Of a stretch of DNA of 32,870 nucleotides, positions 8,588 through 24,672 are shown in pieces. The first letter of the stretch is position 1, and every line of letters begins with the position of its first letter. The notes under the pieces are model-generated. The model was not told the DNA's origin. It saw nothing but the letters and a program-made list of their open reading frames with translations, and did not search any database. The translations under genes were made by a program, and so were the position numbers. Source of the stretch: a virus; IMG/VR virus record IMGVR_UViG_3300021356_000085, positions 1-32,870 of that record. One strand, 5' to 3'.

Positions 8588-10351
8588 TCATGGGTTAGGA
8601 CTTTCGGAGGTCGTTCCATATGGAATACTATAATATTCATCATGTGTCCCTCCATCAGCCGTGCTTCCCAGATATGGGAACTGTGGAGATGTCCATGTAG
8701 AATATGTAGGATTAGAATGAAAATGCTCGCCCACAGGAATGAAGAAAAATGGATCTAAAGTAATTCCACCGAATGAAGTTCCCGAAGGTATGATGTTCAG
8801 TCCGCGTACATTTGGATGATGATAGACTGGAAAAAAGTTTAGATCTAAACTTTGTGCAGCCGTAACTCCTTCTGCTCCTGCCGTTCCAAGAGGTCCAGTC
8901 AGTCCTGTACCAACAACATGTGCCGTAATGCCTGCTTCGGGAACAGTTCCGATTGTATTACCATTTGCTGTGACACCCGTGAAGCCAGGTGCAAATCCAT
9001 TGGGGTATAAATCAACACTGGTTCCGCTGGTGGAGTTGTTTGATCTGAGATCCTGTGTTGTTCCAAAAGTATATGGTGTGTAGTTTCCTATGATAGACAG
9101 TTCTTCTATCGCAGTCTGACTATGAAATGGTAAGTCGCTGGTTAGATTTTTGGAAAGAAGAACATCACCGAAAACTTTAAATCCTGCGGGGTGAATGAGA
9201 GCCTTGAGGGCTTTCTCGTATTTTTTAAGGGATAAATTTGTTTTCAACACATAAGAAAATCTCTGGTAATAATCACCGTCTTGCAGTTTCTTTCGTGAAC
9301 TTGGCTTTCCTCCATCATCATAAAAGAACCCATCGTAAATAGCAAGGGCACTAGATTTTCCTACACCTAAAGCCCCATCACCCGTTTCGGACTCTACACT
9401 AAATTCCACATCTTCTGTATAGTTTGCTCCGTGATTTAAAATCACAATTTGTTTAATTCTTCCTAAGTTGTCAACGCGAGCAACTCTAGCGGCTGCACCC
9501 ACGCCCGTCTTATTGTCAATGATAACAATGTTGTCATTGATTCTATATCCAGATCCTGCATTGGTAAGTTCAAACTCTCCCACCAAATTGAAGATAGTTT
9601 CTGTTATGGTGTTCCCTGAACTAATTTCACACGATACCTTTCTCCCACCAAAAAAGTTTCCTTGAATATCTTCTAAAAATAACTCAGTAACCTTATACGG
9701 AAAAATTTCATACTGAACAACATCAACCACCGTGGCGGTGGCATCTGTTACAGTTCCCGCTAAAGATTTTTGTGATATTGTTTTGCCCTTCATAGAAAAA
9801 ACATCTGAGGCGTTTGCAGAAGTAACTCGAATAGATTTCTTTTCTATCCATTTACCACCAGATGATTCTATCATGTCAACTCGGGGATAATAAAATTCTA
9901 CAATGCTGTTGTAAAATGCATGAAAGAAAAACTCAAACGATTTTTCTGTTCCTTTTACGGCATAAAAATCTTTGATCTGTTTTAAGATATTTTTTCTGTC
10001 AATAATATTACCCGACAGATCTGACTCAAAGACTCTAGGAATATTTTTCATAAACCTGTCTTCGAACGAATCAACAAAATCTGTCAATGTTTTATCAATG
10101 TCTGTGTAATCATTTAAAAGCAGTGTTCTCTCTGTTGCGTTTCCTTCATTTTCCATCCACTCATAATATGCCTCTAAAAACGCGACAAAGTTGGGATGAT
10201 CTAAATTTACAAAATCGGGGACTTGACTTTGAATTAGAGGCGAGATGCCCTCCATTAATCTTCTAGTTCTCTCAGGTAATGGAACAAGTTCACCGTTAAC
10301 ATAAACGGTATCTGGACCAGTGCCTCCACGGAGAAGTAAACTTAGTGACAT
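8588..10351 (-). CDS. Baseplate wedge protein in the gp7 position (587 aa)
   Basis: The N-terminal third is helical and conserved-looking: QVPDFVNLDHPNFVAFLEAY at about residues 43-62, and ILKQIKDFYAVKGTEKSFEF at about 122-141. It resembles the domain found in tail protein I and wedge proteins of contractile tails. The middle is a beta domain. The last 150 residues are a Gly/Thr/Pro-rich, low-complexity tail ending TSESPNP. It sits between gp6 and gp8, exactly where T4 has gp7, and starts 3 bases after the gp6 stop, so the two are coupled. T4 gp7 is 1032 aa, so this protein is much shorter and the homology is not demonstrated. I call it a gp7 analogue by position and N-terminal fold. Confidence 0.65.
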   Translation of the reverse strand: MSLSLLLRGGTGPDTVYVNGELVPLPERTRRLMEGISPLIQSQVPDFVNLDHPNFVAFLEAYYEWMENEGNATERTLLLNDYTDIDKTLTDFVDSFEDRFMKNIPRVFESDLSGNIIDRKNILKQIKDFYAVKGTEKSFEFFFHAFYNSIVEFYYPRVDMIESSGGKWIEKKSIRVTSANASDVFSMKGKTISQKSLAGTVTDATATVVDVVQYEIFPYKVTELFLEDIQGNFFGGRKVSCEISSGNTITETIFNLVGEFELTNAGSGYRINDNIVIIDNKTGVGAAARVARVDNLGRIKQIVILNHGANYTEDVEFSVESETGDGALGVGKSSALAIYDGFFYDDGGKPSSRKKLQDGDYYQRFSYVLKTNLSLKKYEKALKALIHPAGFKVFGDVLLSKNLTSDLPFHSQTAIEELSIIGNYTPYTFGTTQDLRSNNSTSGTSVDLYPNGFAPGFTGVTANGNTIGTVPEAGITAHVVGTGLTGPLGTAGAEGVTAAQSLDLNFFPVYHHPNVRGLNIIPSGTSFGGITLDPFFFIPVGEHFHSNPTYSTWTSPQFPYLGSTADGGTHDEYYSIPYGTTSESPNP

Positions 10352-12690: not shown

Positions 12691-14283
12691 CTAAATGCCA
12701 GGATTTGCACCCTCGGGGAGATCTGGATTTTTCTTAATTTCAATAGCCTCTTCAAGTCTTGATGCTAAACCAAAAGTGCCGATTACAAAGTCGTTACGAT
12801 CGTCGGGGAAAGCATCAATGTATGCCAAGGACTTCTCTAGTTGATCCAGCGGGAAGGTATTAAGTAAGAACTCAACGGGTGCATCATACAATCCTGTTGA
12901 GGTAAACCCACCATTTCTCTGCTGGTTTTTATAAACATCTAAAAGAGATCTTGCCACTGATCTGTAACTCAGAGCAGTTTCCACTCTCACATCTTCAAGT
13001 GTTCTGGGTTCTTGAGTGGCCTTAATGGGAAGATTTGCCGAGACTGGTGACTGATCCGTAGTCTCGTCTGTGATATCTCCTGTGCTTTCCTCTTCTTTCG
13101 CCTCCTCGTCATCGGATGTTGCTTCCTCTATTCTATTCTCTAAGTCTTCAAAGAACTTGTCTACATCATTCCCAAATTCCTCCACATTAGTGGCAAGATC
13201 TTTAGCCGCCTGTTCGGCTTGTTCAACAATTTGTTCACCTGCCTCAATGATGTCCTCAGCAGATTTTTGAATTGCTTCAACAGTTTCTCTACCAATCTCC
13301 ACAGTTTCCTCTATAACCTGCTGAACCTGCTCCTTAACGCTCTCTGCTATCCCCTCAACGCTCTCCTTGATTCCATTAACGACATCCTCTGGATCAGGTA
13401 TTTGACTTAATATATCATCAACACTCGGCAGAGAAGGTAATTCTAGACTGGGGATTAAATTGGTTAGGTCTGGAGAAGCAACAAGATCCTTGATAACTTT
13501 TCCTGCCATACACGGATCGCTGAGAACACTGCTCAGTGCTGTATTTGCCAATGCAAACTGATCCAGGAAAGCCAACGCACCAGCAAGATAGGCGTCTTCT
13601 GCGTTTATAATATTGGTAATACTTTGCTGAATGGTTCTAACATTTCCCAAAATTTGTTGTGCTTCATTATAAAATTCAGCGGGAGAAGGGTCAACAAATG
13701 AAGAGGATGGTATGGGAGGAATAGCGTTTGGATCACCAGCGTTAAAACCTAAACCAAACTGAGCCAAAAAGTTTCCTGCTGCCTCGACCGCAGTGTTTGA
13801 TTGTTGAATCGCATTGACGCCAAACTCTTGCTTAAGACTGTTGAAACCATGAGAAAAATTGTCCTTTAATAATTCCTCTGGGTTTGTAACAAGGGTGGCC
13901 AAAGCAGAATTATACGCACTACCAATCCCAAGTATTCTACCCATATCAGGCTCTCCCTCCTGAAAACCTACTATGAGTCCACTCATTCGATTTGTTCTTG
14001 CCTCAAACTCTACTAATTGATTCTGTAAACTAGTCAAAGTTTCCGACATCTCGCCGAAAAAACCGCCACCCGAAGTATTTGGTCCAGACAGTGTTCCAAT
14101 CTTTGCAAGTGCTGAACCGATATTGTTTCGTACATTTCCTGCCAAGTTAGCGATTGGATTTGCAAAAGCCTCTCCACGCAGAACAGTCTTCATGAAGTCA
14201 AGCGAAGTCTCGGGAAGAATCTGCCGAAGGATGGCACAGTTATTAAGAGGGAAGTCCCCATTTCCTATTTGCGTAATTGACAC
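12691..14283 (-). CDS. Baseplate/tail protein with long central coiled coil (530 aa), unknown role
   Basis: The GTG start overlaps the PAAR gene stop (TAGTG), with AAGGA 6 bases upstream. The N-terminus is helical (CAILRQILPETSLDFMKTVL at about residue 16). Residues about 300-395 form a long, strongly amphipathic Glu-rich helix with V/I/A at heptad positions (IKESVEGIAESVKEQVQQVI). An acidic linker rich in D/E/T follows (about 388-412), then a globular C-terminal domain containing PVEFLLNTFPLDQLEKSLAY. There is no signal peptide and no clear membrane span. Placement between PAAR and gp25 puts it among tip and wedge proteins. I recall similar proteins in marine T4-like phages (a DUF7217-type group), but that assignment is from memory and uncertain. 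A rod-like baseplate component or an assembly scaffold would fit. Confidence 0.7.
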   Translation of the reverse strand: MSITQIGNGDFPLNNCAILRQILPETSLDFMKTVLRGEAFANPIANLAGNVRNNIGSALAKIGTLSGPNTSGGGFFGEMSETLTSLQNQLVEFEARTNRMSGLIVGFQEGEPDMGRILGIGSAYNSALATLVTNPEELLKDNFSHGFNSLKQEFGVNAIQQSNTAVEAAGNFLAQFGLGFNAGDPNAIPPIPSSSFVDPSPAEFYNEAQQILGNVRTIQQSITNIINAEDAYLAGALAFLDQFALANTALSSVLSDPCMAGKVIKDLVASPDLTNLIPSLELPSLPSVDDILSQIPDPEDVVNGIKESVEGIAESVKEQVQQVIEETVEIGRETVEAIQKSAEDIIEAGEQIVEQAEQAAKDLATNVEEFGNDVDKFFEDLENRIEEATSDDEEAKEEESTGDITDETTDQSPVSANLPIKATQEPRTLEDVRVETALSYRSVARSLLDVYKNQQRNGGFTSTGLYDAPVEFLLNTFPLDQLEKSLAYIDAFPDDRNDFVIGTFGLASRLEEAIEIKKNPDLPEGANPGI

Positions 14284-14558
14284 TAGTTAATCCTTACATT
14301 CAGAGAGCCCATAATTATTTTGTGTCCACATAAAGCCTGGTCATCCACTCGAACCACTTGTTTCCCTCCAGCAAAAACATCGGGAGATCCGATACGAACT
14401 TCACTACAAATAACACTGTTACCATGATTATGGCAATCAACAGCAACTCCAGCAACCGCGATTGGTTGACCGTTCACAAATACCCCCGTGCTTGGAGCGA
14501 ATCCAAGTTTAGTAGGTGCATCCACCAAAGAAAATCCTGCTAACGCTGCTTGTGGCAT
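14283..14558 (-). CDS. gp5.4: PAAR-type spike tip protein (gp5.4-like)
   Basis: At 91 aa it has the size of T4 gp5.4 (97 aa), the metal-containing conical cap that sharpens the gp5 spike for membrane piercing. The PAAR pattern is visible: GVFVNGQPIAV (25-35), IGSPDVFAGGKQVVRVDD (56-73) and LCGH (76-79). Candidate metal ligands are Cys42, His43, His45, Cys51, Cys77 and His79; PAAR tips usually use three His and one Cys, and I cannot say which are used here. It lies in the spike/hub block with gp5 a few genes upstream, and its stop overlaps the next gene by 1 base. The family call is well supported. Confidence 0.88.
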   Translation of the reverse strand: MPQAALAGFSLVDAPTKLGFAPSTGVFVNGQPIAVAGVAVDCHNHGNSVICSEVRIGSPDVFAGGKQVVRVDDQALCGHKIIMGSLNVRIN

Positions 14559-17212: not shown

Positions 17213-18208
17213 TTATCCCGGTGGGTTAAGGTTTACATTACCACCTTCGAGAACAATTTTAGCACCTCCACCACAAGCGAAAGATAATTTATCCTTCGCA
17301 CAAAAATTGGTTTCTTGTCCTTCGGCACCCAAGTTTATTTTTTCCTCAGTTTTGATTCCGAAGTTTTTACAGTTAACCGTAAAATCATCCTCTAATTCAA
17401 AGTTTGCTTTTTTGCCCTTGAAAGTAAAATTTTCTGATTTGATAGCAACATTACCGAGAGCGGTTATATTTACATTTCCTCCCACAAATACATTGTTGTC
17501 GCCCAAAACTATGTCGTACTCATCTCCAACAGATTTTATTCTGATGCCATCTGGAGTAAATTCAACATATGATCCATTGATATGAGTAATGTTTATTCTT
17601 TCGGCGCCTGATGTATCATCAATTTCGATAATGTGTCCAGTAGTCGATTCATACACTTTATTGTTAGGATATGTGGGATTTGCAGGCGACGATGGTTCGT
17701 TCCAAGTTTCACCTGTGGCAGTTTCAACTTCCTCCAATTCCATACCAAGATATCTTGGATGCACTTCAGTCATTTCGTATGGAGAAGTTGTGGCCCTCTC
17801 ATTGGTGTCTGGTTTTCCGTTGTAGGACTCACGGCTCGCTTTTTGATAAGCATCTGGTGTATTAAAACCAACCAAAGGATCATTCTCTTGAGAATTTATG
17901 CCTGGAATAGTTCCTAAAATCATGGGTTGGGTTGGAACTTCTTCTCCACCGTCAAGGAAGAATCCAAACACATGACTGCCTGGTAAAAATCCAGGCACAG
18001 TTTGCCCCTTCCCTCTGTTACACGCACTTGTTACAGGAAAAATAGGATGTGCCCAGTATAGTTGAACGGTAGGCAATTCTGCTAAATCGGCAGAATGATA
18101 TCCGTGGATTCGGACTCTTGCTCTACCAAGAGTCTCGGGGTCGTTAATATCCTCAACAACTCCCGTCCACCAAACAAACGGTCCATTTTGTCCTTGAAAT
18201 GGTATCAA
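17213..18208 (-). CDS. gp5: Baseplate central spike gp5 lacking the lysozyme domain
   Basis: Homologue of T4 gp5, the trimeric spike below the hub. The OB domain is at residues 11-115 (WTGVVEDINDPETLGRARVR, aligned to T4 VGVVEDRMDPLKLGRVRVRV; TSACNRGKG; VFGFFLDGG; MILGT). The C-terminal needle starts at about 185 (YESTTGHIIEIDDTSGAERI, T4 METESGHIQEFDDTPGQERY) and runs through NVNITALGNVAIKS-type beta repeats to residue 331. T4 gp5 (575 aa) has a lysozyme domain between these parts; here only a 60-70 aa linker is present. The start is TTG at 18208, overlapping the TGA of the 39-codon gene. An in-frame TGA 7 bases upstream of it and no ATG before about residue 155 make TTG nearly forced. The gp5 call is firm, the initiation mode less so. 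Confidence 0.9.
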   Translation of the reverse strand: MIPFQGQNGPFVWWTGVVEDINDPETLGRARVRIHGYHSADLAELPTVQLYWAHPIFPVTSACNRGKGQTVPGFLPGSHVFGFFLDGGEEVPTQPMILGTIPGINSQENDPLVGFNTPDAYQKASRESYNGKPDTNERATTSPYEMTEVHPRYLGMELEEVETATGETWNEPSSPANPTYPNNKVYESTTGHIIEIDDTSGAERINITHINGSYVEFTPDGIRIKSVGDEYDIVLGDNNVFVGGNVNITALGNVAIKSENFTFKGKKANFELEDDFTVNCKNFGIKTEEKINLGAEGQETNFCAKDKLSFACGGGAKIVLEGGNVNLNPPG

Positions 18209-23803: not shown

Positions 23804-24505
23804 ATGAGTTTACCTAAAGTTGATTCCCCCACATATCTTGTCCAGTTAACAAGCCTCGACAAGAAAGTAAAGTACAGACCATACACCATCGGTGAGGAAA
23901 AAATATTATTGATGGCCACAGAGTCAGAGTCTTCAGACGATGTGCTAGATGCAATCGTGAACATCTGTCAAGCGTGTGTGCTTGACGATATTGACATCCA
24001 AGACCTTCCTCTGTTTGATCTAGAGAAACTGCTAATTGCCATTAGATCCAAGTCTGTAGGCGAAGAGGTAGATGTTCTCGCTACCTGTCCCCACTGCGAA
24101 GAGAAAACAGAAGTCAAAATAAACATCCAAAAGTTGGCTACAGACACAAGCGAAAAACCAACCAAAAAAATCATGTTAGGTGATAAAGTAGGAATTTCTT
24201 TAGAGTATCCAAGCATTCGATCCTCAACCTCTCGGTCCTTTATTCATACAATGAGCATCACTGAAGCCATTCGTTGTTGTATAACTCAAGTTTTTGATGA
24301 TACTGAAGTTTTTTCGTTTGCGAATGAGTCGGAAGAAGAGCAAGTAGAATTTATAGAGTCGCTAAGTGCAGAACATTTAAACACAATCACGAATGAGTTC
24401 TTTGATAAAATGCCTATCAATGTGATCGACATGGATTATACATGCCCTCACTGCGAGAAAAAGGTTGAGAGGAGATTTGAAAACCTTCTTGATTTTTTTA
24501 TCTGA
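23804..24505 (+). CDS. gp26: Baseplate hub assembly protein gp26 (zero-frame product)
   Basis: Member of the T4 baseplate family (Pfam T4_baseplate, which includes T4 gp26, 208 aa); here 233 aa. gp26 takes part in hub assembly together with gp51, gp27, gp28 and gp29. The N-terminus has YRPYTIGEEKILLMA (about 24-38), and the helical middle carries LPLFDLEKLLIAIRSKSVGE. Two zinc-knuckle pairs, CPHC at 95-98 and CPHC at 214-217, can form one four-cysteine zinc ribbon. GGAG stands 7 bases before the ATG. The zero frame ends NLLDFFI-stop, and the two Phe codons form a U UUU UUU heptamer from which a -1 shift gives a longer product. Family identity is firm. Confidence 0.88.
   Translation: MSLPKVDSPTYLVQLTSLDKKVKYRPYTIGEEKILLMATESESSDDVLDAIVNICQACVLDDIDIQDLPLFDLEKLLIAIRSKSVGEEVDVLATCPHCEEKTEVKINIQKLATDTSEKPTKKIMLGDKVGISLEYPSIRSSTSRSFIHTMSITEAIRCCITQVFDDTEVFSFANESEEEQVEFIESLSAEHLNTITNEFFDKMPINVIDMDYTCPHCEKKVERRFENLLDFFI
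24493..24499 (+). promoter_or_regulatory. Candidate -1 frameshift slippery heptamer in gp26
   Basis: T TTT TTT, read in the gp26 zero frame as the last base of GAT plus two Phe codons, fits X XXY YYZ. The -1 frame has a TGA at 24490-24492 and the zero frame a TGA at 24503-24505. The only stretch where a -1 shift can extend gp26 is therefore 24493-24502, and the heptamer fills it. Confidence 0.7.
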
Positions 24506-24672
24506 TCAATACTCACACCACACTGTTTGAGTATTACAAAATGAATCATGAACTGATGTATTGGCATAAGTATTCTTTGACAGAGTTGAACGAAATGATT
24601 CCGTGGGAGAGAGAAGTCTATATTCAGTTAATTCTTGCAGAGATAGAAAAGCAGAAAAAGAATGGCAATTAA
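24493..24672 (+). CDS. -1 frame extension of gp26 (gp51 position; tail assembly chaperone-like)
   Basis: This open -1 frame reads from the slippery site to TAA at 24670-24672. A shift after the second Phe codon would add 57 residues (YLINTHTTLFEYYK, then MNHELMYWHKYSLTELNEMI and a helical, charged end), giving a protein of about 289 aa. The H-x-YS-x2-EL-x3-IPWER-x-VY-x-LI pattern resembles the C-terminal extensions of tail assembly chaperones made by -1 shifting upstream of tape-measure genes. An internal ATG at 24541 exists but has no convincing ribosome site. In T4, gene 51 lies next to gene 26 at this point; I cannot show homology to gp51. The extension ends inside the start of the gp29 candidate (11-base overlap). 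Confidence 0.7.
   Translation, partial: FFYLINTHTTLFEYYKMNHELMYWHKYSLTELNEMIPWEREVYIQLILAEIEKQKKNGN

Follow-up and report, generated by a model that had tools for sequence, protein, structure and literature searches.

Predicted -1 frameshift joining a gp26-family gene and a gp51-like frame in a viral genome record

Introduction

In the tail gene region of phage lambda, the short protein gpG is accompanied by a rarer long form, gpGT, which arises by a -1 slip near the end of the gene and gains a C-terminal domain. Such G-T frameshifting is described as widely conserved "except T4" (Atkins 2016, PMC5009743). T4 gp26 and gp51 are listed as hub assembly chaperones in a review of the T4 tail (PMC3004832). 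In T4-like phages, the same gene pair was reportedly identified as short and long chaperones (Vladimirov, Gautam and Davidson 2022, Virology 566:9-15). Outside phages, E. coli dnaX carries a slippery heptamer with a Shine-Dalgarno (SD) sequence about 10 nt upstream and a stem-loop 5-9 nt downstream.

The window analysed here is the whole stretch of 32,870 nucleotides, positions 1 to 32,870 of the IMG/VR virus record IMGVR_UViG_3300021356_000085. A sequence-only reading had predicted a -1 frameshift at the end of its gp26 gene. The features of the locus are collected in Table 1.

Table 1 Features of the gp26 locus in the window
Feature	Position	Strand	Basis or remark
gp26-family gene (PF12322, phrog_150)	23804..24505	+	short form, 233 aa; Pfam and PHROGs matches
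AGGAG, SD-like, candidate stimulator	24470..24474	+	18 nt 5' of the heptamer
TGA closing the -1 frame directly 5' of the heptamer	24490..24492	+	reading-frame check
Slippery heptamer T TTT TTT, in phase with gp26	24493..24499	+	sequence and comparison with relatives
-1 frame extension, 57 codons and TAA (24670-24672)	24499..24672	+	phrog_634, T4 gp51 BLASTP, alignment
Zero-frame TGA ending gp26	24503..24505	+
Hairpin, 8 nt 3' of the heptamer	24508..24535	+	8 perfect pairs (24508-24515/24528-24535) and 2 inner pairs
43-aa ATG ORF within the extension, alternative "separate gp51"	24541..24672	+	no ribosome site
Next ORF, 595 aa	24662..26449	+	overlaps the end of the extension by 11 nt

Sequences compared

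The first comparison set consisted of 14 phage loci taken from gp26 and gp51 matches. Two scans of viral contigs, with alignment queries made from gp26 or from gp51, added 149 further distinct loci; the set found with the gp26 query is blind to the -1 frame. A non-redundant set of 123 loci, under 85% identity, was used for the counts of codons and signals. The phage collection held no phage near-identical to the window, and the closest gp26 relative found is about 40% identical, so that conservation was assessed at long range.

RNA folding was scanned in sliding segments of 40 nt from -160 to +160 around the heptamer. Since the raw hairpin energy is also strong at a +100 control position, composition-corrected z-scores are the proper measure.

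Layout of the locus

Residues 9-232 of gp26 match positions 2-218/219 of PF12322, the full family length (E 3.3e-52), and gp26 also matches phrog_150 over the full length of the protein (E 3.3e-54). The neighbouring genes are T4-like tail and neck genes, namely head closure (gp4), DNA end protector (gp2), tail tube, tube cap and baseplate wedge. An AlphaFold model of gp26 reached a pLDDT of 87.7. Its best three VIA-align matches in the PDB, 3fgx, 2ob9 (tail assembly chaperone of HK97) and 3klu (YqbN), with Z values of 7.6, 7.6 and 7.2, cover the N-terminal 84-86 residues; the next match has a Z of 5.0, and all Z values are under 8. Foldseek returned no significant E-values for the model, and a sequence search of the PDB gave no match. 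The modelled N-terminal domain appears to resemble known tail assembly chaperones of the HK97 and YqbN type in fold, which is supporting and not decisive.

The gene ends with the codons GAT TTT TTT ATC TGA, 24494 being a codon start. The position and phase of the heptamer given by the sequence-only reading are exact, and all its other coordinates hold. Reading the frames again also reproduced its slip room of 10 bases between the two TGA stops (24493-24502), as well as the shifted frame of 57 codons (24499-24669), which ends within the next ORF. The predicted fusion would measure 232+57 = 289 aa.

The shifted frame had been described as looking coding, and homology bears this out. Its 59 residues match phrog_634 (E 3.6e-18), the family of the gp51 "baseplate hub assembly catalyst". 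They match phrog_150 at its C-terminal end as well, and BLASTP aligns the peptide with the C-terminus of T4 gp51 (5e-8). It had further been called the ORF at the position of T4 gp51. The homology to T4 gp51 stands, but the match covers the C-terminal extension of that protein only, not the whole of it.

Taken together with the comparisons below, we put the probability that gp26 and the gp51-like frame form a single gene, which yields two products through a -1 slip on the heptamer, at about 0.93, on sequence grounds. Most ribosomes would translate 23804-24502 and then stop, giving the 233-aa short chaperone. Some would slip by -1 with two tRNA-Phe on T TTT TTT, read 57 more codons and give the 289-aa long form. 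By analogy with lambda gpG, the short form may coat the tape measure protein, and the C-terminal domain of the long form may recruit tail tube subunits, as gpGT does. We infer the slippage itself, the slip rate and the chaperone roles of both products.

The next ORF had been proposed as a tape measure candidate. A tape measure would fit both its position and its length of 595 aa, but the proposal found no support in homology: neither tblastn against phage records nor viral contigs, Pfam or PHROGs gave a homologue. In the relatives, the downstream genes found here differ greatly from one another. A second candidate is a 530-aa ORF at 12691-14283 (-), which weakly matches tape-measure families within a coiled-coil stretch (best E 1.5e-5); tblastn with this ORF gave no match. 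The 331-aa ORF at 17213-18208 (-) has as its best match the first part only of a "baseplate hub subunit and tail lysozyme" family of about 870 aa, and the lysozyme part is seemingly missing. A PAAR-motif protein is encoded near it, at 14283-14558 (-). The 587-aa ORF at 8588-10351 (-) looks like a patchwork of shared domains, its parts matching pieces of families of baseplate wedge, head closure and very large virion proteins.

Conservation of the heptamer and of the shifted frame

Alignment of gp26 loci from related phages, which had been proposed as a check, found both the heptamer and the -1 frame conserved. The same layout is present in 12 of the 14 phage loci, with T TTT TTC or T TTT TTT right before the gp26 stop. 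All loci from the viral contigs, 70/70 with the gp26 query and 79/79 with the gp51 query, have the in-phase heptamer (T TTT TTN in the gp26-query loci), and their -1 frame encodes a gp51 domain that spans the gp26 stop. Sequencing or assembly errors typically fall in homopolymer runs, and one of them could in principle have split an in-frame gene. The same frame relation recurs in every related locus examined that has the layout, finished isolate genomes included; this explanation is refuted, and its probability is practically nil.

An in-phase T TTT TTN is found in 162 of 166 distinct gp26-family ORFs, the exceptions being the two T4 paralogues, Klebsiella phage May and Vibrio phage D531. It occurs in Pseudomonas phage pf16, Sinorhizobium phage phiM7, Vibrio phages VmeM-32, F86 and V05, Aeromonas phage AsFcp_1, Agrobacterium phages OLIVR5 and Atu_ph07 and Salmonella phage SD-6. 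T TTT TTC is kept in distant relatives, jumbo phages included, while Rhizobium phage RL2RES has T TTT TTG. Frameshifting was reportedly also found by Vladimirov and co-workers to be kept in several T4-like groups.

All 123 loci have a T-ending codon before the Phe pair, where 61% would be expected, although the codon itself (AGT, AAT, GAT, TCT, GCT or ACT) and the amino acid (Ser, Asn, Asp, Ala, Thr) vary. All 123 also use TTT for the first Phe, a codon with a background of 71%. At Phe-Phe pairs elsewhere in gp26, the heptamer context is found in just 4 of 105 cases.

Three phages count against the shift. In Klebsiella May and in Vibrio D531 and K469 the gp51-like -1 frame is present but the heptamer is absent, and the ends of their gp26 genes (L013 2302, L015 2176 and L180 2221) hold only U_UUC or U_UUU. 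Such tetramers have been described as -1 motifs (PMC4066793).

The heptamer types among the 123 loci, TTTTTTC in 94, TTTTTTT in 27 and TTTTTTA in 2, bear on the possibility that RNA polymerase rather than the ribosome slips, so that a share of transcripts minus one U would encode the fusion. The window does have seven consecutive T's, but the 94 loci of the main type have only six followed by C, and six T's are a short run for polymerase slippage. The SD-like element and the hairpin that flank the heptamer are, moreover, ribosome signals. Polymerase slippage is extremely unlikely as the source of the fusion.

If the gp51-like frame were expressed as a separate gene, whether from ATG 24541 or through re-initiation once gp26 has ended, the heptamer would be incidental. 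Databases annotate gp51 separately in many cyanophages, and 119 of 123 loci have an ATG somewhere on the way from the heptamer to the KYS motif. The position of this ATG varies, however, from codon 3 to codon 21, and anti-SD binding 5' of it does not even reach the random level (mean +0.17 vs -1.40; -2.79 for the gp26 ATG). In the window, conserved residues precede the ATG and are missing from the 43-aa ORF. T4 has an in-frame fusion, and a separate gene would leave the invariant heptamer, the codon bias and the hairpin unexplained. We consider it highly improbable. With an in-phase heptamer near the end of the upstream ORF, a conserved -1 frame and no conserved start of its own, the locus agrees in these points with the G/GT-like layout that had been proposed for it.

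Signals flanking the heptamer

Two signals that the sequence-only reading had overlooked flank the heptamer. Upstream of it, an SD-like element is conserved in most relatives. There, GAG encodes the Glu at codon -5 in 82 of 95 loci, compared with a background of 28%, and Gly follows it in nearly all loci, which gives a GGAGGG-like sequence. Anti-SD binding in the relatives shows a single sharp peak 9 nt 5' of the heptamer and amounts to -7.0 kcal/mol, compared with -5.0 kcal/mol under synonymous resampling (p 1e-14). The GGAGGG found 9 nt upstream in most relatives is, judging from these patterns, a probable stimulator of the shift. Against the shift in the window counts that its AGGAG, a candidate stimulator, sits farther away, at 18 nt, than the usual 9 nt.

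Downstream, the folding scan gave one peak, at +10, with a mean z of -1.68 and 40% of the loci under -2, compared with z values from -0.9 to +0.3 at other offsets. When the amino acids of the -1 frame were held fixed by synonymous resampling, the mean z was -1.95 (p 1e-15), and the window itself reached -3.3. In the window's own sequence, unusual folding is seen in the first 40-45 nt only and not in downstream segments of 60-90 nt. An Rfam search gave no match.

Pairing between the arms of the hairpin appears to be maintained. Arms of the same locus pair with -7.6 kcal/mol, against -4.8 +/- 0.2 kcal/mol for arms swapped between loci with the kinship between loci retained. Among 26 loci of one geometry, 11 cells were changed on both sides of a pair, against 2.4 +/- 1.3 in shuffles, and one pair is seen as U-A, G-C and A-U. 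These 26 loci were picked for folding, which biases their paired percentage; the compensatory changes are the informative part. Against the hairpin counts that it reaches -6 kcal/mol or lower in only 69 of 123 loci and that its geometry varies with lineage. All in all, the hairpin just 3' of the heptamer probably stimulates the shift.

Annotation of the extension

In cyanophage records, the extension is a separate gp51 gene in S-PM2 (L178, 3188-3364) and is unannotated in S-CAM1 (L005, 2212-2399).

The splitting of one recoded gene in public cyanophage records is apparently a systematic misannotation. Judging by the comparison, the annotation of hundreds of T4-like genomes divides the gene in two or leaves out its second half, and a simple sequence rule is available for correcting these annotations. 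The conserved upstream and downstream signals also make the ratio of short to long form directly testable in cyanophages.

Comparison with known systems

T4 gp26 and gp51 both match PF12322 and are paralogues. Like the gene of the window, they belong to this family, gp51 being a gp26-like domain with an extension: it continues in frame for some 50 residues, with matches to phrog_634 and to the -1 peptide of the window. Unlike in the window, two genes stand in place of one gene and a shift; they are separate and divergently oriented, and the slippery context is missing in both (GAG TTC TTT GAG and GTG TTT AAG). Since the long form is an ordinary in-frame protein in T4, the comparison gives independent support for the fusion. 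The earlier proposal that gp26 and the gp51-position ORF form one gene is supported by the conserved heptamer and -1 frame and by the joined parts of T4 gp51. The paralogous gene pair of T4 is a clear counterpart to the recoding event.

The window family resembles E. coli dnaX in its slippery heptamer and in the probable stimulators, an SD-like element upstream and a stem-loop downstream. The relatives, with the SD at 9 nt and the folding peak at the site, and the window hairpin, at 8 nt, would suit dnaX-type spacing, unlike the window AGGAG at 18 nt. The dnaX heptamer is A AAA AAG, and its slip shortens the protein, whereas the slip in the window would extend it. We think it likely that a three-part dnaX-like signal sets the chaperone frameshift across marine T4-like phages: U UUU UUC/U, preceded at 9 nt by an internal SD and followed by a hairpin that differs between lineages and stays paired through compensatory changes. 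T4-type phages would have lost this signal on duplication into gp26 and gp51, the ratio then being set by two genes and not by slippage.

As in lambda gpG/gpGT, a short form and a rarer long form would be made by a -1 slip near the end of a gene in the tail region, the long form gaining a C-terminal domain. The gene of the window belongs to the T4 gp26 family and has no detectable sequence relation to lambda G, and its family would slip on Phe-Phe codons and shows SD-like and hairpin elements as probable stimulators. By its sequence features, the predicted shift in the window is a G/GT-type tail assembly chaperone shift and hence a new instance of a known trick; the conserved stimulators are the fresh part of the finding.
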